From assembly GCF_012912005.1 (NCBI RefSeq), contig NZ_JABBEA010000001.1:930001-994000 (forward strand): 64,000 nt of DNA. The letters run 5' to 3'. Both the position numbers and the translations under genes were made by a program. This stretch comes from Paenibacillus sp. SZ31. Lineage in GTDB: Bacteria; Bacillota; Bacilli; Paenibacillales; Paenibacillaceae. This document shows positions 1-14,853 of the stretch, piece after piece. Every line of letters begins with the position of its first letter. The first letter of the stretch is position 1. The notes beneath the pieces were generated by a model. The model was not told the DNA's origin, searched no databases, and was given only the letters and a program-made list of their open reading frames with translations.

Positions 1-46
1 TAAGACATGCTTTAGAATATTTCATATAAACTCCTTCTCTTGCTTG

Positions 47-132
47 TATCGTTGTTCCAACAGACTACTTCCTTGAAATTCAACTCGCAGACCAAGGCTC
101 CATTAGGAGCCCCAGCTCGAATGTTCTGTTAT
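47..132 (-). repeat. attC-like site 0, degenerate
   Basis: The 3' two thirds match attC-like sites 5 and 7: TTGAAATTCA, GCAGACCAAGGCTCC, the hairpin GCTC/GAGC and the terminal GTTAT at 128-132. The TAACGTTCCTGTATTCA arm is eroded to roughly TATCGTTGTTCC, and the inner GTGAATATTA has become TCGAATGTTC. It is the oldest or most damaged site in view and probably no longer folds well. Confidence 0.65.
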
Positions 133-159
133 CAGAAGTACTCCCCTTCTATGTACTAC

Positions 160-342
160 CTACAAGAGTCGTTTTAGTATTACTTCTACTTCTTCTCTTA
201 ATTCACTTTGTATCTCATCACTTGTTGGGTAGTCCCTTATTCTTTCTAGCTCTGGTTTAAGTATTTCTAGTGCAATTGGCCAATTCATGTCTTGTTGCCA
301 TATAAGTAAATCAAGGATCGAATATCCATATTGGTTCACCAC
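160..342 (-). pseudogene. DUF5071-like fragment
   Basis: A 60-codon frame opening with GTG directly after an in-frame TAA. The segment LLIWQQDMNWPIA recalls the LxWLQDMNWPVA signature of DUF5071 proteins, and PELERIRDYPTSDEIQSEL recalls the C-terminal end of that family. Full-length members are about twice as long, so the N-terminus and the middle seem to be missing. It shares its cassette with the next gene upstream (401-1018), the only cassette here with two frames, and no attC-like site is recognisable between them. Most likely a decayed cassette gene; a short intact variant is the alternative. Function unknown. Confidence 0.5.
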
Positions 343-400
343 TATTCTTTATTTGAATTTACTTTTGATCTATAAATAAATCTCATGTGAGTATCTCTGA

Positions 401-1018
401 TCATAAAAACTCGTCTTTCCAAAACCAGTAAAACATCTTTTGCTTCATTCGATTCGCTATGTCACCATTTCTTACCTTAATCCATTTATATAGTGGTTCT
501 TCTATAAATTCCAATAAGTCCTTTTTGCATTTCTTAAGGCTTTCTGCCAGCTCATTATAGGTAAACTTAATGCATACGAGTTCTTCCTTAAGTGGTTCCG
601 GATCATCTGACCATACTAAGGCGTAATCATCAAAATACTGAATTCCAGGCGATGGGTCATGCCCAAGCCATGGACTTTGTTTAGCTTGAATTGAATGTTC
701 TATTGATTGTATTTCTTCTAGCCCACAACAGCAGCTAGGCATGATACATGTCTCATCATCCTTTATAAAAGCTGCCCCACCTAGTAGCGCTACTTCATCT
801 TGCTCAAATAGCTCTTCAAAAGATTCCTCGAAAGACTTCGATACATCAATGCTGTTGTATCCAAATAAATGCAGTAAAAACAATTCAACTTCAGCTTCAC
901 TACTTTTTGAGGATAAAAAAGTAAATTCCTTTCGATTCACTTCATTCTCAATCCAAATAGGTTTATCGTAATAAGGTTCTCGGATTACTGGTTTCATATA
1001 AGACAACTTAAACTTCAC
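401..1018 (-). CDS. cassette 8 hypothetical protein
   Basis: A 205-residue soluble protein with no family I can name with confidence. It has no signal peptide or membrane segment. A Cys-rich stretch (PSCCCGLEE, about 93-101) is followed by SPWLGHDPSP and an aromatic, acidic C-terminal half, a composition seen in small polymorphic-toxin immunity or SUKH-like proteins, but this is only a resemblance. The frame starts with GTG about 40 nt inside the cassette edge; an ATG eight codons in (997) is an alternative start. The neighbourhood shows no promoter of its own, so expression probably depends on transcription entering from upstream in the array. Confidence 0.7.
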   Translation of the reverse strand: MKFKLSYMKPVIREPYYDKPIWIENEVNRKEFTFLSSKSSEAEVELFLLHLFGYNSIDVSKSFEESFEELFEQDEVALLGGAAFIKDDETCIMPSCCCGLEEIQSIEHSIQAKQSPWLGHDPSPGIQYFDDYALVWSDDPEPLKEELVCIKFTYNELAESLKKCKKDLLEFIEEPLYKWIKVRNGDIANRMKQKMFYWFWKDEFL

Positions 1019-1056
1019 CTACTTCATCTTTTTATCTCGTTTTCAGGAATTTCAGC

Positions 1057-1172
1057 TAACGTTCCTGTATTCATGACGCTTGGCGTATGCCAAGTGTGTC
1101 CGGCAGCCTCTGCTTTCCTGAAATGCTTCTGCCGGACCGAGGGCGTATGCTCGATGCGTGAATATATTGTTA
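1057..1172 (-). repeat. attC-like site 1 (116 bp)
   Basis: Outer frame TAACGTTCCTGTATTCATG ... GCGTGAATATATTGTTA. Inside are three stem-loops: CTTGGC/GCCAAG around GTAT, a long GTCCGGCAG/CTGCCGGAC stem with a 20-nt internal insert, and GGGC/GCTC around GTAT. It belongs to the cassette carrying the gene at 1215-1598. Confidence 0.8.
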
Positions 1173-1214
1173 TCTGATTTTCAAGGTAATCTATGAATAA
1201 CTTTCAATAATGTT

Positions 1215-1598
1215 TCAACTATGATCTTCAATCAATATTAACTTCTTATCTTTCATTTGAAATATTGATTTCCCTTGAAGTTTTAATGTTTCTCCTGCCA
1301 TCATTCCATTAGGGAGATCTCTGGACAATACTCCCTCATAATCAATGTCAACCTCTGCTTTATCTCCTGCGAAAGTAATGTTCTTTATTACTTGACGCCT
1401 TTGAGAAAATACCTGAATTGACTGCTCTGCTAATGTGCGAAATTCCTGAATCCCCTTTGTTTCCGAATTCACTTCACCTTTAGAAATGTTTCGAAAATGA
1501 ATATTCTCATTCAAAACTCCTATCATTCCATCAATGTTAAACGTATTATATGAGCTCAGGTATTTTTCAATAAGATCTTTTAAATTTGAGTTCTCCAA
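1215..1598 (-). CDS. SnoaL-like (NTF2-fold) protein, cassette 7
   Basis: A 127-residue protein with the build of SnoaL/NTF2-like domains: N-terminal helices (LIEKYLSSYNTFNIDGMIGVLNE), then HFRNIS, TKGIQEFRTLAEQ and alternating strands ending with FQMKDKKLILIEDHS. Such folds serve as small-molecule binding or isomerase domains; no substrate can be inferred. The start is TTG at 1598, supported by AGGAGTG nine bases upstream. The cassette edge lies only about 50 nt upstream, leaving little room for a promoter. SnoaL-like genes are common passengers of chromosomal integrons (known in general), which fits this setting. Confidence 0.75.
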   Translation of the reverse strand: MENSNLKDLIEKYLSSYNTFNIDGMIGVLNENIHFRNISKGEVNSETKGIQEFRTLAEQSIQVFSQRRQVIKNITFAGDKAEVDIDYEGVLSRDLPNGMMAGETLKLQGKSIFQMKDKKLILIEDHS

Positions 1599-1649
1599 GT
1601 CGAATCACACTCCTAGATTTTGATATTACATAATTGTCCTGATTTCAGA

Positions 1650-1739
1650 TAACGTTCCTGTATTCACGACCCAGCGTATGCTGGGTGTCCGGCGAATACC
1701 AGACCAAGGACGAATGTCCACAGCGTGAATATTATGTTA
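1650..1739 (-). repeat. attC-like site 2 (90 bp)
   Basis: TAACGTTCCTGTATTCACG ... GCGTGAATATTATGTTA enclosing three stem-loops: CCCAGC/GCTGGG with GTAT loop, GTCCGGC/..CAGAC (partly mismatched) with GAATA loop, and GGAC/GTCC with GAAT loop. Confidence 0.85.
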
Positions 1740-1770
1740 TACGACGTACTAGCCTTCCTGATTACTCTCT

Positions 1771-2391
1771 CTAATTCCCATAAGTATTTAACTCACCTAA
1801 AACTCTAAGTTTTTCGAAAACTTTTTTATACTCTCGATCTATTTTCTCAACTATAAGATCTCTTGTAATATATTCTAAGTTAGTTTCTATCATTTCTTTA
1901 TAATTATTTCCAAAGACTTCAACAAGCAAAATACGATAATCAAATTCTATATGATCATATGTGCCTAATATATAATCCAAATTTAAGATATCATGTCTTA
2001 CTTTCTCCATTATCCCGTACAATCTGTTTATTACAGATAGTTCTTCTGGATTTAATTCCTCACTAAGTGAGACGATTATTGATGAATATGCTGTGTTCAT
2101 TGGTAATAGATTAGGGGCACGACCAACATGTTGTCTTTTTTGCTCTTTGACTATATTCAATCCCTCATCAATAGCATTTAAAAAATCAATATAAATAATT
2201 TTTGCTGAAGTTCTTTTATTCTCAAAAATTCTTCTATTCTCTAACTCACGAGTTTTATTATAGATTTCTGATTGAGCCTTTATACTATCTTGAGTCGCAC
2301 TTTTACTGGCCTTATAGCTTAAGAAGCCACCGATCATAGCACCTACTAAACCTAAGCTAGCAATAATTATGTTACTTATATTTAAGTCCAT
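1771..2391 (-). CDS. membrane-anchored coiled protein, cassette 6
   Basis: A 206-residue protein. One N-terminal membrane segment (about residues 7-26, IIIASLGLVGAMIGGFLSY) is followed by a polar helical region (SKSATQDSIKAQSEIYNKTREL) and a mostly helical cytoplasmic body. No catalytic motif seen. Single-pass proteins of this layout are frequent among phage-defence accessory proteins, but that is an analogy, not an assignment. The ATG start at 2391 is well supported by AAAGGGGA nine bases upstream, and the cassette edge is 35 nt away, so there is essentially no room for an own promoter. Confidence 0.75.
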   Translation of the reverse strand: MDLNISNIIIASLGLVGAMIGGFLSYKASKSATQDSIKAQSEIYNKTRELENRRIFENKRTSAKIIYIDFLNAIDEGLNIVKEQKRQHVGRAPNLLPMNTAYSSIIVSLSEELNPEELSVINRLYGIMEKVRHDILNLDYILGTYDHIEFDYRILLVEVFGNNYKEMIETNLEYITRDLIVEKIDREYKKVFEKLRVLGELNTYGN

Positions 2392-2425
2392 AATTTCAAT
2401 TCCCCTTTGTTGCTAGTATGTTGTA

Positions 2426-2515
2426 TAACGTTCCTGTATTCACGACTCAGCGTATGCTGAGTGTCCGGCGAATGCCGGACCCAGGGCGTATGCCCGTAGC
2501 GTGAATATTATGTTA
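2426..2515 (-). repeat. attC-like site 3 (90 bp)
   Basis: Outer frame as in site 2. Stem-loops: ACTCAGC/GCTGAGT with GTAT loop, GTCCGGC/GCCGGAC with GAAT loop, GGGC/GCCC with GTAT loop. All three stems are perfect; the first two carry base changes compared with site 4 and site 6 that preserve pairing. Confidence 0.88.
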
Positions 2516-2627
2516 AGCGTTGCTTCTATCTTTATGATGTTAGTATTGAATTTTCGTTACCATGCATATCCCAAATGCAAGATATTTTCTTGGATAAGAT
2601 TTATCATGATTATGAATACTACTTCTT

Positions 2628-3668
2628 TCAGTGTGACTTAAAAACAAATAACTTCGAATTTTTATCTGAATAGAGATATTCTTTTAAAAATAGTTTAAGC
2701 TCTTCATTTTCGGTATCTAACCACTGATCAACCTGTTCCACTTCTTCATCTTGTTTTTCCACTTTCCATAAATCTTCTCTATTCTCAACCATTTTAATCA
2801 AAATATCTTCTTCGAATTTGTGAACTAATCTTCTTATCCATTCTTGATCAAAGAATTCAAGAGGAGATTCCTCCCGCATACTAATATGTGCTTGAGCCAT
2901 AGACATATAGGCATATATTGAAGGAGAAACATCCATATCTAATGTCACTTCTGGATCAACAATTTTAATGTCAACAGGCGAATTATCATATAAATTAAAA
3001 AAGACATTCACTCCTAATCCTGAAAATCTAGTTTGCTTTGCTTGTCGGGCTGTCGACACCATCTTATTATTGATACTAGATTTAACCTCAGTTATCGCCA
3101 CAATTTTAAGATAGCGATTAACTATAATAAAATCTGGAGTTGAAAATTGCTTTTTGTTGCTCTTACTTACTCTAAGTACGCCAAATGGAGAAACATCGTC
3201 CAATTGTTCAAGCAGCAAGCGAGCTATACCTTCACCATAACCTGCAGAAATCTTTCCCTTTCGTTCAGACGAACAATTTAATACTACATCCTTGTTTAGC
3301 CACAACTTATTCGAATCCGTTATTAATGGATGTAAATTTAATACTGGGCAATACGGATTTATGAAACCACTACTTAATAAGCTTCTTTGATACTGAAAGA
3401 ATTTCACTAACATCTCCACATGCATTTGATGAAGCTCTAAATATGCTCTTCTATCATTGCTTATCAATTTCAATCTCTGATAATTTCTAAAACCCATATC
3501 ATAAACGTCAGTTAAATAAGCATTTAAATCTATTTCTTGTATATTAGAATCAAGTGTTTTCAAACTATTTTCCACTCTTTTATACAGAATAAGATTTTTA
3601 TTAAAAGTACTTTTAATAATATCAGTTTGAATTGAAAAAATATTTGTTCCTGAATTGAAAGTTGACAT
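2628..3668 (-). CDS. PD-(D/E)xK nuclease-like protein, cassette 5
   Basis: A 346-residue soluble protein. Residues 178-196 read PDF...ITEVK, with the acidic residue D179, E194 and K196 arranged as in the PD-(D/E)xK nuclease core; hydrophobic strands flank both parts, and an upstream helix (GYGEGIARLLLEQL, about 143-156) carries a plausible additional conserved Glu. The remainder is helical and not assigned. Such folds occur in restriction enzymes and other anti-phage nucleases. It is a stand-alone gene, with no methyltransferase in the cassette. The ATG is about 200 nt from the cassette edge, so this cassette, unlike most others, has room for a promoter. Substrate and activity are untested; some members of the fold are inactive. 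Confidence 0.72.
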   Translation of the reverse strand: MSTFNSGTNIFSIQTDIIKSTFNKNLILYKRVENSLKTLDSNIQEIDLNAYLTDVYDMGFRNYQRLKLISNDRRAYLELHQMHVEMLVKFFQYQRSLLSSGFINPYCPVLNLHPLITDSNKLWLNKDVVLNCSSERKGKISAGYGEGIARLLLEQLDDVSPFGVLRVSKSNKKQFSTPDFIIVNRYLKIVAITEVKSSINNKMVSTARQAKQTRFSGLGVNVFFNLYDNSPVDIKIVDPEVTLDMDVSPSIYAYMSMAQAHISMREESPLEFFDQEWIRRLVHKFEEDILIKMVENREDLWKVEKQDEEVEQVDQWLDTENEELKLFLKEYLYSDKNSKLFVFKSH

Positions 3669-3865
3669 TCCTACTCAAATCCCCAATCTTCAACTTAGTA
3701 TTTTAGCTATATTAGAAATTAACTTCTCACTTAAAAACTAAATGTAATATCAAATTTTAATTTTGTTTTCTCTTTGAAATTTGTGCTAAAGACTTATTCC
3801 AGTTTTGAATTTCACTAGTTTATTTTTTTAGACTACTCTTAAATTTGATTTTAAGAAGTTACGCT

Positions 3866-3955
3866 TAACGTTCCTGTATTTACGACTCGACGCATGTCGA
3901 GTGTCCGGCGTATGCCGGGCCAAGGGCGCATACCCGCAGCGTGAATATTATGTTA
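3866..3955 (-). repeat. attC-like site 4 (90 bp)
   Basis: TAACGTTCCTGTATTTACG ... GCGTGAATATTATGTTA. Stem-loops ACTCGAC/GTCGAGT (GCAT loop), GTCCGGC/GCCGGGC (GTAT loop, one wobble) and GGGC/ACCC (GCAT loop). Confidence 0.87.
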
Positions 3956-3978
3956 TCGGATGTTGCTGTCCTCTTAAA

Positions 3979-4692
3979 TTATTCAAAGCTTCCTTTCATA
4001 ACTTCAAATTCTTTTCTGCTTTTTAGTAATTCATCAAAATCCAAATTCTCAAGCAAATGTTTTGAATGATGTTTTAATCCAACAGGAACTGGCACTATAC
4101 ATATTATTCCGTATGAATAATCTATGTTTAATGCTTCTCTTGTTTTTTGTGTCATTTTGAGAATTGCAGGCATATATTCATGTAAATCAATTTTCTTTAA
4201 TACTTGAAGAATATATTTAAAAACTTCTCGTCCGTAATCAGTAACTTCTTCAGTTGTTGGTATGTAACCTTTGTGAATTACTTTATTTCTAAATTCTATA
4301 TTCCTTTTATGCAAAGGCATCGGAACTTCTTTAAAGTGCAATAAATACGCTGTGTAAAATGCACCAAGTTGTCTTTCAGATTGGATACTCATCAATTTCC
4401 AAGTATCTGTGAATTGGTGCGAGTCAATTTCATTCCGAATTGCAATAAGTTCAATGATATATTCATAAAACCTTTCTAGAGAAGCTGCAAAACTAGAAAC
4501 AGCTTCTCTGGTGTATCCGTCTTTCAAAGCCATTAATGCCATTTCAAATAGTATTTCAAACTTCCATTCTTGTAGAATAATATTATTCTTATGACCATTC
4601 TCACATTCAAACTTGTAGTAAATCCCATCAGTTAAATCAATTGATTTGAATCGTTCTTCTTTGCATCCACGACAAGCTAACTTTATCTTCAA
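3979..4692 (-). CDS. zinc-finger HEPN-like protein, cassette 4
   Basis: A 237-residue protein. The N-terminus has C7xxC10 and C30xxxH34, suggesting a small zinc ribbon. The rest is helical and ends its core with R135NKVIH140, the Rx4H motif of HEPN ribonucleases, followed by KGYIPT. HEPN proteins cleave or bind RNA and are recurrent in abortive-infection and toxin-antitoxin systems (known). RNase activity here is inferred only from the motif. No antitoxin gene (for example a MNT nucleotidyltransferase) is in the same cassette. The start is TTG at 4692 with GGAGAG about eight bases upstream. Confidence 0.75.
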   Translation of the reverse strand: MKIKLACRGCKEERFKSIDLTDGIYYKFECENGHKNNIILQEWKFEILFEMALMALKDGYTREAVSSFAASLERFYEYIIELIAIRNEIDSHQFTDTWKLMSIQSERQLGAFYTAYLLHFKEVPMPLHKRNIEFRNKVIHKGYIPTTEEVTDYGREVFKYILQVLKKIDLHEYMPAILKMTQKTREALNIDYSYGIICIVPVPVGLKHHSKHLLENLDFDELLKSRKEFEVMKGSFE

Positions 4693-4733
4693 GCAATTCT
4701 CTCCAATCTATTTATGCTCTTAGCAATTTCCGA

Positions 4734-4844
4734 TAACGTTCCTGTATTCACGAACCCCGAAGGGGTTGTCTGCTGAAATGCCCCCTCGAAATCCTTCCCG
4801 AAGACCAAGGCTCCGTAAGGAGCCACAGCGTGAATATTATGTTA
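4734..4844 (-). repeat. attC-like site 5 (111 bp)
   Basis: Outer frame TAACGTTCCTGTATTCACG ... GCGTGAATATTATGTTA. First hairpin AACCCC/GGGGTT with GAAG loop, a long middle arm (GTCT...AGAC) with an unpaired interior, and GCTC/GAGC last hairpin. Same subfamily as sites 0 and 7. Confidence 0.85.
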
Positions 4845-4884
4845 TGAGATGTCTTCGACTTCGTTGAAATACTCAAACTACATG

Positions 4885-5592
4885 TTACTTCCCTATAATA
4901 AATATACTTCTTTTAAGCAGTTCAATAATAAAATTAATATTCTTAATAACATTGTTAGGACTTAGACATTCTTGAAATTTTTCTGTTTCTAATCCATTTT
5001 TAAATCGAGTTCTTACTAGTCCTGGAATGTTTGGGGATTGATTATGTGTAATTTGGTTCCTATAATTAATAGCATTTTTAAATTCTGTATCATTAATAAT
5101 TTCATTAAGTTCAAAATACATATTGGCATCTATCTTTTCTAGAGAACTTACAACGTCTCTGAAATACACTCTTTTCGTCTTTAAATCATATTGTATATTG
5201 AGAATATGCCCCAGCGTTTCCCAACAAGAGAAAATTTTGAAGTAAAATACATCAGTACAGTTATCAAATCTGGCTTTGATTTGATAATGATGTTCTTCAA
5301 AATCATTAAATATATCTTTATTATTTCTTTGTTCTATTTCATCAGGAATCCCCAACTCATAATAAAAACTCAATAATATGTAACTCTCAATAAGTGCTCT
5401 AACCCTTTGTATTAGTAGAAATCCATTTGAGTTCAATATAGGCGTATCAAAAACATCAGTTATTTCAAAATTCTTATCAGCAAAGTCCAATGAGGAAAAA
5501 TTAAAGTCTTTGAATGGACTTCTATTAAAAATATCATTCCATTCTTCTTGATTTGGGTATCTTACATATCTCATCTTAATACCAACTTTCAC
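4885..5592 (-). CDS. HEPN-like protein, cassette 3
   Basis: A 235-residue, largely helical protein with R178NQITH183, an Rx4H HEPN-type motif, preceded by the helix ELNEIINDTEFKNAINY and an upstream region (FYFKIFSCWETLGHILN) that resembles the N-terminal helices of Cthe_2314-type HEPN proteins. Role inferred: RNA-targeting effector or its degenerate relative. The frame begins with GTG at 5592, only 13 nt from the cassette edge; an ATG six codons in (5574) is an alternative. Neither has a good ribosome site, so translation may rely on a leader contributed by the neighbouring attC-like site. Confidence 0.7.
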   Translation of the reverse strand: MKVGIKMRYVRYPNQEEWNDIFNRSPFKDFNFSSLDFADKNFEITDVFDTPILNSNGFLLIQRVRALIESYILLSFYYELGIPDEIEQRNNKDIFNDFEEHHYQIKARFDNCTDVFYFKIFSCWETLGHILNIQYDLKTKRVYFRDVVSSLEKIDANMYFELNEIINDTEFKNAINYRNQITHNQSPNIPGLVRTRFKNGLETEKFQECLSPNNVIKNINFIIELLKRSIFIIGK

Positions 5593-5604
5593 GAAGATTT
5601 CTCA

Positions 5605-5694
5605 TAACGTTCCTGTATTCACGACTCGACGACTGTCGAGTGTCTGGCGAATGCCAGACCAAGGACGAATGTCCGCAGCGTGAATATTATGTTA
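5605..5694 (-). repeat. attC-like site 6 (90 bp)
   Basis: The clearest copy. Outer arms ATTCACG/CGTGAAT enclose three perfect hairpins: ACTCGAC/GTCGAGT (GACT loop), GTCTGGC/GCCAGAC (GAAT loop), GGAC/GTCC (GAAT loop). TAAC/GTTA close the structure across a small asymmetric unpaired spacer (GTTCCTGT against ATTAT). Confidence 0.9.
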
Positions 5695-5719
5695 GAGGAT
5701 GTAACCTGACTTCATCGAA

Positions 5720-6367
5720 CTACTTACATTGAATTCCTTGGTTTGTATAATAATCGTACCTTTTAGAATTGACACCAATCCTAGATAATGACTTATCAAT
5801 TAAATTATCTATTTCTTCTGATTTTAAAGAACAACTCAAAAGTAAACTTATGCTTGTAGAATACTTAAACTGTGTATCTTCTGGAGTATTCAATGGTTTT
5901 ATACTATAATCGAGTAGTTTAGAGTTATTACTTGTCTGTAATTCATACGTTAATTTCTCTACAAATTCCTTGCCTTCCCATTGGACAGAAGTGCTAATAA
6001 CCCCATGTACTCTAGTCAGTACCATATCTTGTTCAGTAGTTTCATTTTCTATATGATCCTCTTTAGTGTATGGTTTTGCACTATTTATTTGATTACCTAT
6101 ATTATCGAGTCGTTGATTAATCACTTCTATTGTTGTAGAGATGCTCCCGTGTAAATCCTGTGTACTATTGTTTTGAATAAACGAATATATTATTGCAACA
6201 GCGCCTAAAATAACTGAAATTAGGCTTCCACCAATTGAGAGTATATTGGTTATATCTTGATTGTCACTTAATCTCATTGAAACTACCATAATATTAGAAA
6301 TAATTAAAATTGATACTAACCACACCATGTCTCTAAACTTCCATTGTAATTTTTTTATGAATTTCAT
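5720..6367 (-). CDS. two-pass membrane protein, cassette 2
   Basis: A 215-residue protein with two hydrophobic segments (about 13-31, VWLVSILIISNIMVVSM region; and about 39-64, NILSIGGSLISVILGAVAIIYSF), then a short coiled stretch (ISTTIEVINQRLDNIGNQI) and a C-terminal soluble domain of about 120 residues with no motif I recognise. Layout resembles small membrane sensors or effectors in anti-phage loci; function unknown. Start ATG at 6367 with AAGGAGAG eight bases upstream; the cassette edge is about 43 nt away, so the gene appears promoterless. Confidence 0.75.
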   Translation of the reverse strand: MKFIKKLQWKFRDMVWLVSILIISNIMVVSMRLSDNQDITNILSIGGSLISVILGAVAIIYSFIQNNSTQDLHGSISTTIEVINQRLDNIGNQINSAKPYTKEDHIENETTEQDMVLTRVHGVISTSVQWEGKEFVEKLTYELQTSNNSKLLDYSIKPLNTPEDTQFKYSTSISLLLSCSLKSEEIDNLIDKSLSRIGVNSKRYDYYTNQGIQCK

Positions 6368-6407
6368 TCTTTACTCTCCTTCAGATTAATCTACAGGTTA
6401 TTTCCTC

Positions 6408-6517
6408 TAACGTTTCTGTATTCATGAACCCCGAAGGGGTTGTCTGCTGAAATCCCTCTTCGAAATTCATCCAGCAGACCAAGGCTCCACAGGAGCCGCA
6501 GCGTGAATATTATGTTA
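6408..6517 (-). repeat. attC-like site 7 (110 bp)
   Basis: TAACGTTTCTGTATTCATG ... GCGTGAATATTATGTTA. Hairpins AACCCC/GGGGTT (GAAG loop), long arm GTCTGCTG/CAGCAGAC, and GGCTCC/GGAGCC. It is the attC-like site of the recombinase-proximal cassette. Confidence 0.87.
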
Positions 6518-6755
6518 TATGCTGCCTGTACCCTTCCAAATTCTCTTAATATTAATTGATATTTTCCTATTTTAATTCTAAGCTTTCTTTGTTTCTTTTT
6601 ATAATACTTTTTAGCATACTCTATCTTTTTTCCTTTTATTAAATTCGATTCTATTTACTGATCTGAAGCAATCTTGTTTATTTAGTCTCTTTTTACTTAA
6701 TTATCCTTTTTAATTATTTTTGTTCCTTTTTTCTTAATACTTTTAACTCTAAACT

Positions 6756-6784
6756 AAAAACGCCGAGTTCCTAATCGGCGTTTT
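6756..6784 (-). terminator. intrinsic terminator of cassette 1 gene
   Basis: Stem AACGCCGA/TCGGCGTT with a short loop, followed on the minus strand by a T run, 22 nt past the stop codon of the 543-residue cassette protein. Inside a cassette array it would stop read-through into the distal cassettes. The 6518-6755 stretch between it and site 7 is very AT-rich; I see no clear gene or promoter there. Confidence 0.75.
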
Positions 6785-6806
6785 GGTATTTAACTTGTTA
6801 ATTTTA

Positions 6807-8438
6807 TCAAGAGTTTAAAATACCATCGAGTGTAAAGTAACTTATATCAGCATTTTCAGTTTCAATTTGCTTACCAAAGTAATTAGGTCTTGCTGTAACT
6901 AAATAGGTTTTAACTGTATATTCATTCTCTTGCAGGTTCCATGCAGTAATAACATCGTCCATATTTTCTCGTACCCATGCTGCGCGACGTTGGATTTTAT
7001 CAATATCATCAAAGATTTTTTTATCTTTCTTTAAAATTTCAGTTAATTCGCTTGCGGGCTTATAATACTTAATCTCAAAGATAATTACTTCTTTTTTGAC
7101 CTTGTTGATAACTACTGCATCTAAATCTCCTAGATCCTGATTTGAGCTATTCACAATTTTTTTTCTAATGCCGTTTCCTTGAAACATTTTTATATTCACA
7201 TAAGGAATATCTTTTTCAATGATAGGTACATAATAATCATATTTATTTTGAAAATGTAACGCGATTTTGTAAGCAATCAAAGTAGAAATTTTTTCTTGCG
7301 CTTTTTTAAATGGTAATGTTGCTCTGCTACCAAACATTTCCTCAACAAAATGATCACTCATAGCTAAGTTTTTGAATACCGTTATACTATTAGCGGAGTC
7401 AAAAAAGCCTATTGCAATAAAGTTCTCATATTTAAAAATAAATTTATAGTCCATGTGAGGATTAGATAGTCTGTACTTGGAATCCCCTTTTGATTCATAT
7501 TTAAAGTAACTTATTATTTGATGTATCTTTTTTATAGAAAGACTCATTTCTGTAAACTGACTTTCGAAAATAAAAGAACATTTCATAGAATAACCATTTA
7601 TAGTAGGTGAAATATTATGAATTTGTTCATGATTAGTTGAAATTCCGATTATCTCATTTCTAAAAGTATCCAAGTCTTCAAAATTGAATCCGTATAGCAT
7701 TTCAATTTCTTTGCCTACATCTTCATTTAATTTTTCCGTTTCCAGATTTCTTTTTTTGAGATATAGTTTTAGTTTAGCATTTTCTTCGAATTCAATTTCT
7801 TCAGGTTTTATGAGTTCTTTAAATTCGAACATATTATGAAACCATTCTAATCTATCGTTCTCAATCTTTGTTTTTAACATTTCTTCTAAACCAACATTCC
7901 AAGAAAAATAGTCATTTAATTTTATATTATCAGAAATTGTAAACAACTCTTCACAAATGACTAAGACATTAATAAAATCTTCTTCTTGGTTAATCATATA
8001 ATCGCCAAAGTATTTCTCTTCTGTTAACTCTAACAATGTAATAAACACATGACTTAGATTTCTCAAACGCGAAGAATCCCATACATCATCACTAAAAATG
8101 TTCCAAGTTGCGATTTCTCGCAATGCTAAAGCCATAAAATATAAGTCCTCTTTAGCATACCCTGAAACAAGTGCTTTAAAGTCTTCGATATACCTATCAA
8201 CAACTATTTCTGCACCTTTTTTTACTTCTCCCTTATATGAAGCTATAAAAGGATTATAAATTCTTTGATGCACATTGCTAAAATATGTTTCCTGATTTTG
8301 ATTAACCTTTAGATTTGCAATAAACATTATTTTCAATAAATTTCCAATATAATAATAAAAATCACAATGCGGACAAGTTTCCTCCGTAGGAAAATCCAAA
8401 TTCAAAGACAGATTTTTATTGCATTTGGGGCAATTCAT
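6807..8438 (-). CDS. zinc-ribbon and PD-(D/E)xK nuclease-like protein, cassette 1
   Basis: A 543-residue protein. C3PKC6 and C22PHC25 form an N-terminal zinc ribbon. The middle (about 50-420) is a helical/mixed region without a known motif. Residues 437-457 (GDLDAVVIN ... IIFEIKYYK) give D438/D440, E455 and K457, the PD-(D/E)xK core as found in NERD and Mrr-like nuclease domains. A short tail of about 85 residues follows. Inferred: a single-gene nuclease effector, plausibly anti-phage. The ATG at 8438 has AAAGGAAG six to seven bases upstream. About 155 nt lie between the start and the cassette edge, enough for a promoter, and the gene has its own terminator, so this cassette looks self-sufficient. 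Confidence 0.75.
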   Translation of the reverse strand: MNCPKCNKNLSLNLDFPTEETCPHCDFYYYIGNLLKIMFIANLKVNQNQETYFSNVHQRIYNPFIASYKGEVKKGAEIVVDRYIEDFKALVSGYAKEDLYFMALALREIATWNIFSDDVWDSSRLRNLSHVFITLLELTEEKYFGDYMINQEEDFINVLVICEELFTISDNIKLNDYFSWNVGLEEMLKTKIENDRLEWFHNMFEFKELIKPEEIEFEENAKLKLYLKKRNLETEKLNEDVGKEIEMLYGFNFEDLDTFRNEIIGISTNHEQIHNISPTINGYSMKCSFIFESQFTEMSLSIKKIHQIISYFKYESKGDSKYRLSNPHMDYKFIFKYENFIAIGFFDSANSITVFKNLAMSDHFVEEMFGSRATLPFKKAQEKISTLIAYKIALHFQNKYDYYVPIIEKDIPYVNIKMFQGNGIRKKIVNSSNQDLGDLDAVVINKVKKEVIIFEIKYYKPASELTEILKKDKKIFDDIDKIQRRAAWVRENMDDVITAWNLQENEYTVKTYLVTARPNYFGKQIETENADISYFTLDGILNS

Positions 8439-8591
8439 TCTTTTCTTCCTTTCTATTTTCGATGATGTAAACCCTGTAGAGTTACTACATTAAGAATACT
8501 AATACTGACCCGTGATCAATTTTTGATTTTAACTTTTTTTAAAAATAATTTTTATTATTTTCTTTTTCCTCTCTGTCATGTAGGTTGCATA

Positions 8592-8700
8592 TAACATCTA
8601 ATTTATGCACTTCGTAAATACCACAGATCTTGCCTGATATCCGAACTACGTCTATGATAACCGATGCTGTGGTATTTGCGAAGAATAATTTGGTGAAAAA
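8592..8700 (-). other. attI-like primary recombination site
   Basis: Begins with the same TAAC (8592-8595) as the attC-like sites, at the edge where cassette 1 starts. The interior differs: a 17-nt near-perfect inverted repeat (8610-8626 against 8667-8683, core AAATACCACAG/CTGTGGTATTT) separated by 40 nt. It lies 36 bp beyond the stop codon of the recombinase. It lacks the ATTCACG/CGTGAAT arms of the other sites. Cassette 1 starts here with an end that pairs with its own attC-like site. Inferred: the platform's resident site where new cassettes insert. A terminator is less likely because no T run follows on either strand. Confidence 0.65.
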
Positions 8701-8719
8701 GGTAGATTTATAGGAGAAC

Positions 8720-9835
8720 TCACTCTCCCAGATCCAAACGATCCAGCGGGCTCTGAATACGTTGAATATTTTTCATACTCACATGCGTATATCGCTGAGT
8801 TGTTCGTGCACTCGTATGACCAAGTAGCTCCTGAATGTAGCGCAAGTCTGTTCCGTTTTCCAGTAAATGCGTAGCGAAGGAGTGCCTTAAGGCATGAATA
8901 CTAACCTTTTTTACAATACCTGCGCGTTGTCTAGCTTCTTCAAAAACCTTCTGTACGCTGCGTTCGGTAAGATGCCGATCCGAAGATTGTCCCGGAAATA
9001 ACCAACGATTGGGTCTATACTCCGTAATGTATTCCTGCACAATTTCCCAAGCTAGGTTAGAGAGAAGAGTTCTCCGATCCTTCTGACCTTTTCCCTGCCG
9101 TACAATAAGTGTCTGACGCTCAATATCCAGATCGCTGCATTGAAGACGAACGACTTCGCCAACACGAAGACCAGAAGAATACGTAAGAAACAGAATCGTC
9201 TTATGCTTTAGATTGGTTACAGATTTGAGCAATTGAGCAACTTCTTTTTCTGACATGACTTTAGGTAATTTCATCTGCTTTTTGGGACGAATATACTGGA
9301 TATCTGTAGAATGATGGAGTACATGTTTGCAATAGAAGCGAATTGCGCTTATCGTCTGATTCACGCTTGAATGGGAGATCCCTTGCTCTAGCAAACCTAA
9401 GCAATAAGTCTGCACATTGGATGCAGTCATATCTGTACTTTCACGAGGAATGCTCCTTAGAAAACGTTCGACCTGATTACAATAGGCTTTAATCGTTTTG
9501 CGGCTGTATCCCCGTAATGTTAATGCCTTCTGTAGTGACTCTTTACTCCATACATTACTTCCCTTGCTAGTTTTCCATTGCTGTAGATCCTCGCTTTCCA
9601 CCCACAACTCCGGGGCAATCTGAACATCTTCTGAATCAAATTGATTCATGAACTCCTGTATAGCAGCTGTGGTGTAAGGGATAATCCACACTTTTTGTTT
9701 GGATTCCCACGTTCTGCCCTTGATCCGACGAATGCGCTCAATATATGCAGGGTTATACGGGATGTAGATGTGCAGTAATTCAGCGGAACCTTTTGTTATG
9801 GTAATCGTCTCTGTGGTAGTAGCATGTTCATTCAT
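8720..9835 (-). CDS. Xer-like tyrosine recombinase, candidate cassette integrase
   Basis: 371 residues. Residues 1-90 form an extra N-terminal domain (IYIPYNPAYIERIRRIKGRTW...KVWIIP), known from some Firmicute recombinases; residues 95-185 are the SAM-like core-binding domain; residues 190-365 the catalytic domain. Catalytic residues visible: R224 (SGLRVGE), K249 (GKGQKDR), H314xxR317 (HALRHSFATHLL), H340 (LGHTS) and Y349. Between the K-hairpin and HxxR there is no IntI-type insertion (the LPxALxRKYPxA segment), so it is not a canonical integron integrase. Start ATG 9835 has GGAGAG upstream. It is transcribed toward the cassettes. Role in cassette movement is inferred from position and the site structure. 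Confidence 0.9.
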   Translation of the reverse strand: MNEHATTTETITITKGSAELLHIYIPYNPAYIERIRRIKGRTWESKQKVWIIPYTTAAIQEFMNQFDSEDVQIAPELWVESEDLQQWKTSKGSNVWSKESLQKALTLRGYSRKTIKAYCNQVERFLRSIPRESTDMTASNVQTYCLGLLEQGISHSSVNQTISAIRFYCKHVLHHSTDIQYIRPKKQMKLPKVMSEKEVAQLLKSVTNLKHKTILFLTYSSGLRVGEVVRLQCSDLDIERQTLIVRQGKGQKDRRTLLSNLAWEIVQEYITEYRPNRWLFPGQSSDRHLTERSVQKVFEEARQRAGIVKKVSIHALRHSFATHLLENGTDLRYIQELLGHTSARTTQRYTHVSMKNIQRIQSPLDRLDLGE

Positions 9836-9889
9836 AGGAAACTCTCCTTCGATTGGATTGATTATGCTATTGCTTTCATTCTGAAAAAC

Positions 9890-9937
9890 AAAAAGGAAGG
9901 CCCTTCTTCATCCCCTAGGGAATCAGACGACCTTCCG
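9890..9937 (-). terminator. terminator upstream of recombinase
   Basis: On the minus strand GGAAGG ... CCTTCC with an inner CCCTAGGG palindrome is followed by TTTTTGTTTTT. It would end transcription coming from the radical SAM gene and isolate the recombinase. The 9836-9889 stretch holds the recombinase leader. Confidence 0.6.
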
Positions 9938-9980
9938 ATGCTTTCGGAACATATATATTTGGGTTAAAAGTGAAGCGGAG

Positions 9981-10220
9981 CGCGACTTGTGCAATGACAA
10001 GCCGCGTAAGGATGAGGTGCTGCGCCCAATGGGCAGCACCTCATGGAGAAGCACCGCGGTCAATAGCGCGGTGCTCATCAAGTCGGGCATCCCCCGCACA
10101 TAGCGGTGATGCCTGCCCCAAACGTGCCACGGACCGTAAAGCCGTGGCACATCTTACTGCTGAATGATGCCAATAGGCCATGCAGCTCGTGTCAGGCTGC
10201 TGCACCTACATGGCAGCAGC
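9981..10220 (-). repeat. cluster of six GC-rich hairpins
   Basis: Six consecutive inverted repeats: 9981-10006 (CGCG, CTTGT/ACAAG), 10012-10044 (12-bp ATGAGGTGCTGC), 10051-10074 (GCACCGCG/CGCGGTGC), 10085-10118 (GGGCATC... with inner CCGC/GCGG), 10124-10150 (GTGCCACGG/CCGTGGCAC) and 10196-10220 (GCTGCTGC/GCAGCAGC, overlapping the stop of the radical SAM gene). Stems differ in sequence, so this is not a simple tandem repeat. As RNA it would form a beads-like 3' UTR. No convincing frame encodes a protein here. Confidence 0.75.
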
Positions 10221-12248
10221 TTCTTCTCCCAGCGGCAGCGTGTAATACTGCGCCTGCTGCCCTTCATGCTGCTGGTACACAACGACCAGCAGCGTCTGGC
10301 CTTTCGCGGCAAGCGGGCTGGCGCCAGCTAGCACACGCTCAAGCCGGAACGGAAGCACATCCAATACGGTGTGCTTCTGTAGTTCCTTTTCGCCGAGACC
10401 AAGGTCGGCGAAAGCACGGGCACCCATGACCGTCTGTGCGGTCATGGCCGAGGTCATCGGCAACGCACGCGAAGCGTTGCCGTCCACCATGTCCGCCGCT
10501 CCATCGACGGCTGACCCAACTGCGTCGCCCGCAACGCGCGACGCTGTACCCCCGGCTTCACTGCCGATCACACCCGCCGCATCTGCGGCAGAGTCTTCTC
10601 CGGCAGCAGCCGAACTTCCCGCAGCGGCACTCGCACCCGTGCCGCTGCTTTCCAACCATGCCGTGCCTGCGGCGCCGGCAACACGTGGCAGACGAACGTC
10701 TTCTGGACGTTCAGCCAACGTTTTCATATAACCCGCCCACTGGTCTTTCTGAAGCGGATCTTCCCACCAGATTTTGCGCGGTTTGTATTTGTGGCCGAGG
10801 AAATAGTCCAGCTTCATCAGGCCGAGCACGATATCCATATGCGGCGTATTCCGCGACTCCAGGAAGCTGTGCAAACGAGTAAACAGATCCTCCAGTTGGT
10901 GACCAATCTTCTGCCAACCTTGACCTTCCCAATAATCCCCAAACGCCTGGAAGAAATCAAACGGCGAGTTGAACTCCTGCTCCATCAGATATTTCAGCGT
11001 ATGGTCCATCCGGTGTGCGTTCCAGTATTTCTCCAACACATCTTCCAGCCGCTTCAGGCGTACGATGTCGCTGAACGGCAGCACGTCACTACCCAGAATC
11101 TCATACGGTGCGTGATCCATGTACGTATAGTTGTACTTCTCCGCATCCAGACGCAGACCTGTACCACGTAGCATTTTGAGGAATCCGAGCTGAAGCTCTT
11201 CTGGCCCCAGTGCAAACACATCATTAAACGTTTTGCGGAACGTATCGTAATTTTCCTCCGGCAGTCCGGCGATGAGATCCAGATGCTGGTCGATTTTGCC
11301 ACTAGCTTTCACCTTGTTTACGGTACGGCTCAGCTTGGCAAAATTTTGACGGCGTTTCACCAGTTCATTTGTCGGATCGTTCGTGGACTGTACCCCGATC
11401 TCGAACCGGAATGTACCCGGTGGCGCATTCTCTGCCAAATAGTCCAGTACTTCGGGACGCATAATATCCGCCGTAATTTCAAACTGGAATACTGTCCCCT
11501 GATGATTCTCAATCAGGAATTTAAACATTTCGAGCGCATAATCTCGTTTGATGTTAAACGTCCGGTCCACAAACTTGATCAGCTTTGCGCCCTTCTCAAT
11601 CAGGTACAGAATATCCGACTTTGTCCGCTCAATATCGTAATACCGCACGCCGACCTCAATACTGGAAAGACAGAACTGACAACTGAACGGACAGCCCCGA
11701 CTGGTCTCAAAATAAACAACGCGCTTCCCAAGCTCCGGGATATCCTCATCAAATCGATGCGGTGACGGCAGATCGTTCAGATCCGCTTTCGGGCGTCCTG
11801 GCATGAGAATGACCTCTTCCCCTTTGCGATACGCCAGTCCATAGACAAAGTGGAACTTCTTGCTTCCTTCCAGCTCCGTCAAGAGCTGATGCAACGTCTC
11901 TTCCCCTTCACCCATCACGATGAAATCCACATTTGGAATGCGGTTCATCCAATATTCCGTGTCATAAGACACTTCCGGCCCGCCCAGCAGAATTTTCACG
12001 TTCGGCATAACCTTTTTTAGATTATCAATAACCTTGATTGTCTCTTCAATGTTCCAGATGTAACACGAGAAACCAATCACGTCCGCGCCGCGCTGATACA
12101 GATCAGACACAATATTCATCACCGGGTCCTTGATCGTATACTCCGCCAGGTCAATATCAAAATCCTTCTCACTGTACGCTTTCAGACACCGCAAGGCCAA
12201 AGAGGTATGGATGTACTTTGCATTTAATGTAGAAAGAATAACCTTCAT
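10206..12248 (-). CDS. B12-binding domain radical SAM protein (DUF4080-like)
   Basis: 680 residues. N-terminal cobalamin-binding-like Rossmann domain (about 1-140: ADVIGFSCYIWN, ILLGGPEVS, FIVMGEGE), then a radical SAM domain with C186PFSC190QFC193 for the 4Fe-4S cluster, then the DUF4080-like C-terminal region to about residue 515. The remaining ~165 residues are unusual: an Ala/Gly/Ser-rich low-complexity tail (about 525-605) followed by a short ordered end. Reaction unknown; relatives modify RNA, lipids or small molecules. It is monocistronic: about 620 bp of non-coding sequence upstream, hairpin cluster downstream. Start ATG 12248; the upstream AAAGGTTGTGAACC offers a moderate ribosome site. 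Confidence 0.85.
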   Translation of the reverse strand: MKVILSTLNAKYIHTSLALRCLKAYSEKDFDIDLAEYTIKDPVMNIVSDLYQRGADVIGFSCYIWNIEETIKVIDNLKKVMPNVKILLGGPEVSYDTEYWMNRIPNVDFIVMGEGEETLHQLLTELEGSKKFHFVYGLAYRKGEEVILMPGRPKADLNDLPSPHRFDEDIPELGKRVVYFETSRGCPFSCQFCLSSIEVGVRYYDIERTKSDILYLIEKGAKLIKFVDRTFNIKRDYALEMFKFLIENHQGTVFQFEITADIMRPEVLDYLAENAPPGTFRFEIGVQSTNDPTNELVKRRQNFAKLSRTVNKVKASGKIDQHLDLIAGLPEENYDTFRKTFNDVFALGPEELQLGFLKMLRGTGLRLDAEKYNYTYMDHAPYEILGSDVLPFSDIVRLKRLEDVLEKYWNAHRMDHTLKYLMEQEFNSPFDFFQAFGDYWEGQGWQKIGHQLEDLFTRLHSFLESRNTPHMDIVLGLMKLDYFLGHKYKPRKIWWEDPLQKDQWAGYMKTLAERPEDVRLPRVAGAAGTAWLESSGTGASAAAGSSAAAGEDSAADAAGVIGSEAGGTASRVAGDAVGSAVDGAADMVDGNASRALPMTSAMTAQTVMGARAFADLGLGEKELQKHTVLDVLPFRLERVLAGASPLAAKGQTLLVVVYQQHEGQQAQYYTLPLGEEAAAM

Positions 12249-12871
12249 GGTTCACAACCTTTGCCTGGACACCCAGACCACATATTTTTTGATAAAAGGA
12301 AAGCATCGCAGCCATCCTGCCCCGGATGCTGTTCATCTAAACCCCTTTTGTACTAGCCATTCCATGTATCATGGACATATTCAACTTTTGTCTTTCAAAG
12401 AGTGGACACTCTTTTCAAAAAGGCATATACACCCCACCAAACGAAAACTACAACATATAGTATGAAAAACACATAATAAAACTACATGTTGTATACGATG
12501 CGATCAGCCCTTTCTAACGCCAATGTCCACCCTTTGAAAGACAATTCGCCACCATTTGTCCACTCTACAGAGACACGATAAACAACTTCAACCTGTAAAA
12601 GACCTCATTCGCATTCATCCGCAATTCGATATCCACATTTTACTGCCTTGAGCCTTTAGCCTCGAACCTCTGCCGAACACTTCCTCCGTATCATGGACGA
12701 ACCATCGACTTGCATGAAGCATATCTATCAACTTTTAGATCAATTAAGCTTTACGTGTCACGAACTTCAAAGACTTGAAAGGGCGAATATAAAAAAATTC
12801 TCACTCCATCCCAACCAGCCAAGCTCGCTCACAATCAACTCATACTCATACTTACTTATACCTGCTCATAC
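12249..12871. other. 623-bp intergenic region with nested inverted repeats
   Basis: No supported gene. It contains an outer 21-nt inverted repeat (12388-12408 and 12524-12544, 20 of 21 matching, core GTCTTTCAAAG) and an inner 13-nt one (12450-12462 and 12481-12493, TACAACAT core). Just past the recQ stop are about five degenerate copies of a 10-mer of the type CTCATACTTA (12838-12885). The promoter of the radical SAM gene must also lie here. Confidence 0.6.
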
Positions 12872-14752
12872 CTACTCATACTCGTAAAACGCATCATCAT
12901 CCGTATCCACTTCTTCGCCCGATTGCTTCTGGAAAAACTCCAGGAACGGCAGTCCGTACTTGCGGTACTTCACCTCACCGACCCCTTTGATATCCAGCAT
13001 GTCACGTTCTGTCTGTGGACATACCACACTCATCTCGCGCAAAGTCGCATCATTGAAAATAATGTACGATGGCACATGCTCTTTCGCCGCCAGATCACGC
13101 CGGATCAGACGCAACTGTTCGAATACAGTCTCGTTGACCGCAGATGGCATCGCATCGCGTCCACGACGTCCGCCGTAGTTCGTACCCGAAGCCGTTGCCG
13201 CTGTCTTGCGGACCACACGCTGCATCACTTCACGCTGGCCTTTGAGTACTTCGACCGCCAGTGGTTGCAGACGAACGACCGGATACTGTCCCTCGGACAG
13301 CATCAGATATCCTTCGGATACCATCACGTTGATGATCTCCGAAATTTCACGCTCCGTACGATTGCCCATCACGCCATAGGTTGGCAGAGAGTTGAAGCCG
13401 TAATCGAGTACCTTTTTGGCACGAGAGCCTTTGAGCACCGAAGCAACCAGTGATACACCATAACGTTCACGCATGCGGTGAATGCAGCTGAATATTTTCT
13501 GTGCATCAATCGTCATGTCTACCAACTCACGGTCGTCCGTACAGGAACTGCAAGTACCGCAAGGTGTATCGTCATGCACCTCACCGAAATAATCCAGCTG
13601 CGCACTGCGCAGACAACGCGTCGTGTAACAGTAATCCACCATCTGCTGCAGCTTCCGGTAATCGTTCTGTTTGCGGTCGCCGTCCATCGGATTCTGCTCA
13701 ATCAAGAATTTCTGGGTGATAATGTCCTGTGCCCCGAATAACAAAATACACTGGCTTGGCTCACCGTCCCGACCCGCACGTCCAGCTTCCTGCACATATG
13801 CTTCCATGTTCTTCGGCATGCTGTTATGAATAACGTAACGCACGTTCGACTTATCAATCCCCATCCCGAACGCATTGGTCGCCACCATCACCCGGATATC
13901 ATCGTACAAAAAAGCTTCCTGGCTCTGGGACCGTTCATCGTCCGTCATCCCGGCATGGTACCGTCCTGCGGGCAATCCGGCTTGCAACAAACGCTGATGC
14001 AGATCGTCCACGTCCTTACGGGTCGCGGCGTACACAATGCCTGGCTCGCTGGCATGCTCGCGCGCATAATTCAGGACAAAGTCCTTCTTGCTCTCGCCGC
14101 GCAGCACGCTAAACGCCAGATTATCCCGCCCAAGTCCGGTCACATATGTCTGCGGATCCTGCAAACGCAGCAGCCGCAGAATATCGCCCATGACCTCGGG
14201 CGTCGCTGTAGCCGTAAAGGCCGCAACCACCGGCCGCTCCGGCAAACTGTCCACAAACGGCGCTACCGCCAGGTAGCTTGTCCGAAAATCATGCCCCCAC
14301 TGCGATACACAGTGGGCCTCATCCACAGCAACGCAAGAGATCGGCAAATAGCCCATCTCCTCGCGGAACCAATCCAGCTCCAGTCGCTCAGGCGCGACAT
14401 AGAGCAACTTCAGCTCACCGCGCTGCGCCGCGCGGATGCGATCATTCACTTCTTTGCCGCTAAGTGTACTATTAATATACGCGGCAGCAATTCCGGCGGT
14501 CGTCAACGCATCGACCTGATCCTTCATCAATGAGATCAACGGGGAGACGACAAGCGTCAGTCCCGAATACAACAGAGCGGGGATCTGATAACAGATCGAC
14601 TTACCGCCCCCGGTTGGCATAATACCCAACGTATCCTCGCGTTCCAGTAGGCTGGCTACAATCTTTTTCTGTCCCTCACGGAAGTCGGGGTAGCCATAAT
14701 ATTTTTGCAGGAGACCCTGCGCTTCTTCTAATGTAGGTGTTTGCACACTCAT
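12872..14752 (-). CDS. recQ: ATP-dependent DNA helicase RecQ
   Basis: 626 residues. 3'-5' helicase that unwinds recombination and fork intermediates. Seen: Walker A G48GGKS52 in [12 protein letters not shown] box at 144-147 ([16 protein letters not shown]), helicase motif VI region ([12 protein letters not shown]), the RecQ zinc-binding Cys set ([12 protein letters not shown]...CGTCSSC), RQC winged helix, and an HRDC-type C-terminal domain ([18 protein letters not shown]). Length is normal for the family. It ends in an acidic [11 protein letters not shown] tail. Start ATG 14752 is preceded by AAGGAGT. Downstream of the Rpn gene with a probable terminator between them, so likely its own transcript. 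Confidence 0.95.
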
Positions 14753-14853
14753 GTAAAGACTCCTTACTTATCACCGATGTTCTTCCACCAGCTTGGTCCG
14801 ATCCGTTTTGACATCCGAAAGCGGCACATATACCGCATCCTTGACAACAAAAT

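Follow-up and report, generated by a model that had tools for sequence, protein, structure and literature searches.

A putative integron-like platform of one-gene cassettes, with a tyrosine recombinase lacking the I2 insert, in Paenibacillus and related genera

Introduction

Sedentary chromosomal integrons, such as those of Vibrio, consist of an integrase (IntI), an insertion site (attI) and an array of cassettes separated by attC sites. In the available parts of PMC7790495 and PMC4792948, the I2 helix of IntI is described as the innovation behind the single-strand recombination of cassettes; the first of them also remarks on a 'lack of intermediates' in connection with the proposed integron ancestor, and the accessible text of PMC9668308 has the archaeal IntI retaining the IntI-specific domain. 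Here we describe a 64,000-nt stretch of the genome of Paenibacillus sp. SZ31 (the window, to whose whole length all unlabelled coordinates refer), in which cassettes of one gene each, separated by attC-like sites, lie beside the gene of a tyrosine recombinase (8720-9835). As far as can be judged from sequence, this is very probably a chromosomal platform of one-gene cassettes, likely integron-like, run by that recombinase.

Surveys find integrons to be very rare in Firmicutes. The available portion of the IntegronFinder 2.0 survey (PMC9024848) gives one complete integron, in Limnochorda pilosa, and a few CALIN (clusters of attC sites without an integrase), and the corresponding part of PMC2426708 reports none in 103 Firmicutes genomes. 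An earlier note on this DNA had considered integrons to be almost solely Gram-negative; that one complete case and those few CALIN correct it. Cassette open reading frames (ORFs) with weak Paenibacillus matches only are mentioned in the portion of PMC4909258 at hand; among the open-access matches listed, no title or abstract concerned Paenibacillus integrons or this recombinase. What the note had picked out is real and larger than first described: it had missed the first cassette (gene 6807-8438), the attI-like site and, elsewhere in this genome, two more clusters of sites.

Sites of the window array

Seven intact attC-like sites and an eighth, eroded one had been reported, alternating with single genes. 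All seven were found at the coordinates given, with lengths of 90-116 bp, and all of them carry TAAC...GTTA termini and arms of the TATTCACG/CGTGAATA type; every intersite unit of the window contains one long minus-strand ORF. The eighth is weak: it is cut by the window edge and does not appear among the matches at E<=0.01 of the covariance model R1 in the whole-genome search. This model was built from 15 sites, those of the window array and those of a cluster at 27.7-35 kb. The elements are as follows.

8720-9835, minus strand: tyrosine recombinase, 371 aa, Pfam PF00589 and PF13495
8595-8690, minus strand: attI-like site, insertion point G8595/T8594, from the comparison of 13 syntenic loci, outer edge approximate
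6408-6517, plus strand: attC-like site 1, 110 bp, R1 106.8 bits, training site
5605-5694, plus strand: attC-like site 2, 90 bp, R1 90.6 bits, training site
4734-4844, plus strand: attC-like site 3, 111 bp, R1 104.3 bits, training site
3866-3955, plus strand: attC-like site 4, 90 bp, R1 86.8 bits, training site
2426-2515, plus strand: attC-like site 5, 90 bp, R1 88.9 bits, training site
1650-1739, plus strand: attC-like site 6, 90 bp, R1 89.5 bits, training site
1057-1172, plus strand: attC-like site 7, 116 bp, R1 83.1 bits, training site
47-132, plus strand: eroded attC-like site, R1 31 bits over 1-131

Read on the gene (minus) strand, the site consensus starts with TAACATAATATTCACGC and ends with CGTGAATACAGGAACGTTA, and between them there are two to three small hairpins that vary from site to site. 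Folding of four of the seven intact sites on both strands gave z-scores of -3.0 to -4.9, with at most one of 200 shuffles equally good. When the 293 sites of 25 array regions were scored for RYYYAAC and GTTRRRY, which we take to be the attC outer-box consensus, both boxes appeared in only nine (GTTRRRY in 61, RYYYAAC in 67), so these sites depart from the integron consensus.

Pairing of the cassette ends

In the window, the right flank of a site has its reverse complement in the left flank of the site that follows, not in its own left flank, and therefore it is the two ends of one and the same unit that are complementary; only the most distal unit, 1060-1652, departs from this rule. Throughout 249 units from the 25 regions a cassette starts with GTTA-NNN-GAAAT and ends with ACATC-NNN-TAAC. 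At bases 1-3 the two ends of a cassette pair with frequencies of 0.83, 0.82 and 0.81, against 0.49, 0.33 and 0.31 with shuffled partners, and at bases 8-13 with 0.55-0.80 against 0.27-0.46, while base 7 is paired in just 4% of the units and base 6 in 36%, a conserved mismatch. The three N are all paired in 162 of the 249. Since a cassette's own ends can pair only when they are joined in a circle, it is the site of the circle that appears to be under selection.

Predicted folding was examined for the same units, with each site rebuilt from its own cassette start as it would be in the circle. These circle-form sites fold better than the sites as they stand in the array in 217 of 249 (three ties; mean -27.3 vs -22.0 kcal/mol, a mean gain of 5.3 kcal/mol), and they beat versions with shuffled partners in 218. 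For cassette 2 of the window (5608-6410) the rebuilt site has a predicted fold of -35.2 kcal/mol. At five of its eight positions the inner 8-bp arm, compared over 192 distinct arm pairs, has more Watson-Crick pairs than any of 500 shuffles; the shuffles leave relatedness in place, so that this covariation is support and not proof.

The attI-like insertion point

In 13 loci with the same order recQ, radical SAM gene and recombinase, the DNA downstream is conserved up to ...AAATTAGATG/TTA (the slash marks the boundary) and unrelated past it. The boundary reads G/TTA in 12 of them and A/TTA in the remaining one, G056, with AATATTA. A conserved insertion point that adjoins the recombinase gene is, on this comparison of sequences, the putative anatomy of an attI. 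Within the attI-like site there is an inverted repeat of 17 nt (8667-8683/8610-8626, 94%). The flanks 6501-6527 and 8582-8608 (27 nt) are 74% complementary, and it is because of this complementarity that gene 6807-8438 can be assigned to the first cassette of the array. The conserved attI-like stretch also contains TTCGCA-17-TATCAT, at 8682-8654 of the minus strand, a candidate cassette promoter.

The recombinase

The recombinase gene adjoins the first cassette and is read in the same direction as the cassettes. Its product has an N-terminal domain of ~95 aa, followed by a SAM-like domain and the catalytic domain, without the IntI insert. In an alignment of 41 rows R224, K249, H314 and R317 are invariant and H340 and Y349 nearly so, and the ratio of nonsynonymous to synonymous substitution rates among eight intact copies (28 pairs) is 0.11-0.29, from which it follows that the enzyme is maintained.

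The earlier description of this enzyme as a non-IntI recombinase is borne out. In the alignment rows inspected, the I2/patch insert is present in five IntI and absent from the window recombinase and three relatives; the integron-integrase model TIGR02249 gives it 202.8 bits, under the cut-off of 265; and in a tree that is unrooted and has long branches, the 14 IntI rows group together at 100/100 support, with none of the 19 Paenibacillaceae recombinases among them. These 19 do not come out as a single clade (59% of bootstrap trees), and five Xer-like proteins of the genome that holds the window (G000 below; other G-numbers are the other genomes compared) are on long branches. The best NCBIfam model is XerA_Arch (222, cut-off 220). 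Among sequences of solved structures the best match is 4a8e and the second 2a3v, named IntI4 in the PDB, whose residues 180-239 are unmatched, the window recombinase having 18 residues there. With an AlphaFold model of the recombinase, Foldseek places 2a3v on top and XerA next, with template modelling (TM) scores of ~0.5. In sequence, a C-terminal SPLxRL stretch aligns with IntI. The N-terminal domain (residues 1-95) contains a GRxWxxxxKxWxIPY motif, which the relatives in the alignment share and to which nothing in the IntI match corresponds.

Cassette turnover and transfer

A way to follow the movement of the cassettes is to compare arrays of related genomes. Our comparison covered 17 genomes, with 164 units in 18 regions, and two units were taken to match when their identity reached 75% over 60% of the longer body; the units lie between two detected sites, and first cassettes, which adjoin attI, are outside the comparison. 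A cassette is shared in 24 unit pairs. Relatives do not carry the same genes in the same order, which would have spoken against a cassette system, and the content differs between them at the same locus. Genome G040, of the same species, has none of the six compared window-array cassettes, and its recQ is 99.7% identical in amino acids. G000, G001 and G049 have in common only the most distal unit (1060-1652, cassette 7; family F0), with bodies 97.9-98.5% identical, and its continuation, and G055 and G056 share four successive units.

G040 has one cassette body of 512 bp, 100% identical, in two arrays where its neighbours are unrelated, the identity stopping at G/TTA boundaries, and another body is 99.8% identical between G040 and G049; identity of these bodies begins inside the upstream site, in its shared end, and stops ~1 base past the GTTA of the downstream site. 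With seven regions of three other genera added there are 50 shared pairs, 41 of them flanked by units that are unrelated. Of these 41 pairs, 29 resemble each other more in the downstream than in the upstream site, as do 12 of the 17 with at least 90% body identity (the pairs are not independent), and therefore gene and downstream site usually travel together, with exceptions. Near-identical pairs without a more conserved downstream site, for example G038_13991 and G016_16622, look as if the sites had been swapped under the gene.

Cassettes of 753 bp that are 94-96% identical occur in G016 and G038, both of genus g1, and in G278 of genus g18. Between G038 and G278 the cassette is 95.9% identical and recQ 70% at the DNA level, which indicates transfer between genera.

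Clusters in the genome and spread in the family

In the 6.48-Mb genome, where 150 of the 1125 candidates of a first look were scored, R1 listed 19 matches, all on one strand of one contig and all 19 in three clusters, at 27.7-35 kb (eight sites), at 898-902 kb (four) and in the window (seven). Fifteen of the 19 are training sites, and the four at 898-902 kb are the only others. Scattered repeats without linked genes, which would have told against the array, were thus not what was seen, and only four of the 293 sites in the 25 regions are solitary, with no neighbour within 4 kb. A first pattern search, allowing two mismatches, also hit C1:290207 and C23:307406 outside the clusters, neither of them listed by R1; its reversed control gave two matches vs 14, and a position weight matrix scan of reversed sequence gave none in 921 kb (40 kb counted twice).

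The 27.7-35 kb cluster (L010, G000:C1:20001-40000, at 7726-14988) is an array of eight sites with no recombinase match nearby, CALIN-like, and by eye its cargo includes GrpB, NUDIX-like, HAD-like and peptidase-like genes. The cluster at G000:C1:898585-903512 (L013 and L014) is decayed; the recombinase copy next to it is interrupted by stops, its pieces being 61% and 50% identical.

The recombinase was found at E<=1e-60 in 47 of 75 genomes of the genus, broken copies included. Of the 18 recombinase loci with a name, 17 come from Paenibacillus, in line with a Paenibacillus host. The 128 R1 matches in the window and in 16 of these 18 loci all lie downstream of the recombinase and on the opposite strand; the two loci without matches are L040, a recombinase fragment, and L042, from Peribacillus. 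Sites of the genus regions are 66-185 bp long, in a single orientation within each region. A covariance search across the Paenibacillaceae, as the earlier note had proposed, reveals a family-wide system and not one of a single strain: R1 has matches at E<=1e-5 in 193 of 295 genomes and in 16 of the 19 genera searched, with at most 12 candidates scored per genome, and 152 of the 193 have at least three sites. The recombinase adjoins arrays in all four genera read. In seven regions from g7, g13 and g18, four have the array adjoining a recombinase of 51-54% identity; in G288 the adjoining recombinase is possibly broken, its match falling into three pieces that overlap (65, 54 and 33%); and in the 20 kb read from G186 and from G200 no recombinase match accompanies the array, which in G200 has 24 sites in 18 kb.

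One site (5605-5694, 90 bp) had no match in plasmids or phages, nor had the one 20-mer tried any in viral contigs, and therefore no mobile version was found at that sensitivity. R1 at E<=1 had no match in one class 1 integron region, in a Chryseobacterium plasmid stretch or in a Peribacillus locus. On a Chryseobacterium plasmid (L142) a 40% identical recombinase of 347 aa stands ahead of a row of short genes in the same direction, with no R1 site; this locus could be a further cassette system.

Cassettes and their cargo

Each unit of the window, counted from the recombinase, is composed of one gene and its site, with the degree of pairing between its own ends given where it was scored.

6411-8594, minus strand: cassette 1, gene 6807-8438 (543 aa, no family match) and site 6408-6517, complementary flanks, attI boundary
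5608-6410, minus strand: cassette 2, gene 5720-6367 (215 aa) and site 5605-5694, own ends pairing 12/16
4737-5607, minus strand: cassette 3, gene 4885-5592 (HEPN_Cthe2314, PF18730, 9.8e-23) and site 4734-4844, 11/16
3869-4736, minus strand: cassette 4, gene 3979-4692 (237 aa) and site 3866-3955, 10/16
2429-3868, minus strand: cassette 5, gene 2628-3668 (346 aa) and site 2426-2515, 10/16
1653-2428, minus strand: cassette 6, gene 1771-2391 (206 aa) and site 1650-1739, 12/16
1060-1652, minus strand: cassette 7, gene 1215-1598 (SnoaL-like, 127 aa, PF12680, 1.5e-6) and site 1057-1172, 7/16
50-1059, minus strand: cassette 8 (distal), gene 401-1018 (205 aa) and ORF 160-342 (60 aa, DUF5071-like)

Cassette 8 is probably decayed, its lower edge being set by the eroded site, and its DUF5071-like ORF scores 24.4 bits, below the cut-off of 27. 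Apart from the HEPN_Cthe2314 and the SnoaL-like protein, the cassette genes of the window have no family above the cut-off, and PADLOC gave no match for eight of the cassette proteins of the window.

Beyond the window, the longest ORF is on the sense strand in 138 of 155 units, with a median coverage of 77% vs 22% antisense (ORF statistics omit units >2.6 kb, flank statistics those >3.5 kb). These 155 units gave 127 reference ORFs, that is, sense ORFs of at least 270 nt within one locus, of which 121 were scanned; the other six are three near-duplicates of kept ORFs and L103:15292-16047, L106:8529-9059 and L108:18816-19379. The 121 matched 84 Pfam families at E<=0.001, each in at most three members, and 84 PADLOC models at E<=1e-5, each in at most two (in both cases the 25 most frequent of 84 were inspected). 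Cassette bodies are AT-rich across genera, with a GC content of 0.328 (standard deviation 0.030, n=244, 25 array regions), and the sites and the recQ-recombinase stretch are at 0.50, far above them. The uniformly low GC of the bodies suggests a common donor pool or a constraint on cargo.

Possible mechanism and alternatives

We propose that cassettes would be cut out as circles by the recombinase, which would then insert them next to its own gene, at the attI-like site, the recombined sites being the predicted hairpins. The site rebuilt in the circle (GTTA-NNN-GAAAT with ACATC-NNN-TAAC; NNN and bases 8-13 paired, bases 6-7 mismatched) would be recognised as a folded single strand, preferentially the strand opposite the genes, and the enzyme would presumably do so without the I2 helix that IntI uses. 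The folded single-strand step, taken alone, we regard as likely from what the sequences allow. With less assurance, we lean towards a second, separate kind of integron, family-wide, in which an I2-less recombinase acts on single-strand hairpins rebuilt from the two ends of the cassette, and the end pairing and mismatch replace I2 and the extrahelical bases. Such a system would either have been invented independently or be a survivor from the time before integrons had I2.

Several observations weigh against the proposed platform or its mechanism. The recombinase lacks the very insert considered necessary for folded attC sites, and its AlphaFold model is of moderate quality (pLDDT 81, pTM 0.49). 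Cassette 7 has the weakest own-end pairing of the window array, with 5/5 of the first bases but 7/16 overall, poor beyond base 5 and below the 9/16 of the same-site comparison. The bottom strand, opposite the genes, is predicted to be more stable than the top one in 176 of 249 units, a modest preference; inner-arm pairs 3, 6 and 8 are within the range of the shuffles, and pair 7 is Watson-Crick in 119 of 192. The downstream site is not more alike in 12 of the 41 shared pairs (5 of 17 at >=90% body identity). There are arrays with no recombinase found nearby (the 27.7-35 kb cluster and two of the seven other-genus regions), and in 41 of the 193 family genomes with R1 matches there are no more than two sites. 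A promoter and terminator scan gave no signal beyond chance (15 promoter-like sites vs 14.5 expected). SOS (LexA) control of the integron integrase is common, if not universal, and no GAACN4GTTC box, which we take to be the LexA-type motif, was found with up to one mismatch in the 400 bp upstream in the 13 loci.

The cassettes could instead be moved by site-specific recombination on duplex DNA, in the manner of Xer, with the hairpin potential a by-product of the inverted arms. A catalytic domain of Xer type without I2, the XerA_Arch match, and inner arms that form an inverted repeat, as for a recombinase dimer, would all suit this explanation; inverted arms, however, do not require the far ends of a cassette to be complementary in freely varying bases, nor do they account for compensating changes in the inner arms or for rebuilt sites that fold better than array sites, and we hold it to be unlikely. 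Still more doubtful is a true but fast-evolving integron, acquired by Paenibacillaceae from Gram-negatives, whose IntI lost I2. The overall anatomy is the same, and the Foldseek rank of the IntI 2a3v and the alignable SPLxRL stretch could be read in its favour, yet the IntI rows group without any Paenibacillaceae row (in that unrooted, long-branched tree), there are ~95 extra N-terminal residues, and very few sites have both boxes.

It is most improbable that the sites are dispersed palindromic repeats by accessory genes, shuffled by homologous recombination, with the recombinase as a bystander. Homologous recombination between repeats of 90 bp is possible, and both the arrays without a nearby recombinase and the few solitary sites agree with it; against it are the boundaries at a fixed base, the single orientation relative to the recombinase, the end complementarity within units and the recombinase adjoining arrays in four genera.

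In this Gram-positive family, arrays of cassette sites occur in 16 of the 19 genera searched, with an I2-less recombinase alongside in the four read. The question of the origin of integrons can thereby be put to the test: I2 is dispensable if the enzyme acts on folded single strands, and if it uses duplex DNA it would be a model of the proposed integron ancestor. The cassettes also form a pool of mobile genes exchanged between Paenibacillaceae genera, those of the window mostly without a known family.

Comparison with known systems

XerA recombinases act at dif-like sites; the archaeal XerA-type enzymes (4a8e, 5hxy) include the closest solved-structure sequence to the recombinase, 4a8e, and XerA systems are not known to have cassette arrays. 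XerCD dif sites are short (~28 bp), and pdif sites stand in alternating orientation. We have rejected pdif modules as an identification on account of the site size (66-185 bp) and the single orientation, and ordinary scattered repeats on account of the clustering of all 19 genome matches and the rarity of solitary sites.

The CALIN resemble the 27.7-35 kb array, with eight sites and no recombinase match near, except that its sites are of a new type. The integron of Limnochorda pilosa HC45, compared by its description, is likewise from Firmicutes; it is a single case, found with IntI and attC models and presumably canonical. In the integration of CTXphi via XerCD, according to the available part of PMC4792948, tyrosine recombinases without I2 act on a folded single strand, as proposed here, but there a phage borrows the enzymes of its host and no cassette array has its own recombinase and insertion site.

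The closest likeness is to the sedentary chromosomal integrons of Vibrio and others: one gene and one site per unit, an insertion point by the recombinase gene, a G/TT boundary, a site rebuilt from the cassette's own ends, diverse cargo of mostly unknown families and, in the sets compared, a distal end more stable than the proximal one. Unlike them, the Paenibacillaceae have a recombinase without I2/patch, outside the IntI group and with an extra N-terminal domain, GTTA-NNN-GAAAT and ACATC-NNN-TAAC in place of the GTTRRRY and RYYYAAC of integrons, end pairing to about base 13 with a conserved mismatch, no LexA-type box found, and here a reading direction shared by recombinase and cassettes. 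Canonical integron membership is ruled out by the missing insert, the divergent outer boxes and the tree. By its anatomy and by the comparison of genomes the system appears to work like an integron, and if integrons are defined by IntI and attC it is not one of their family.

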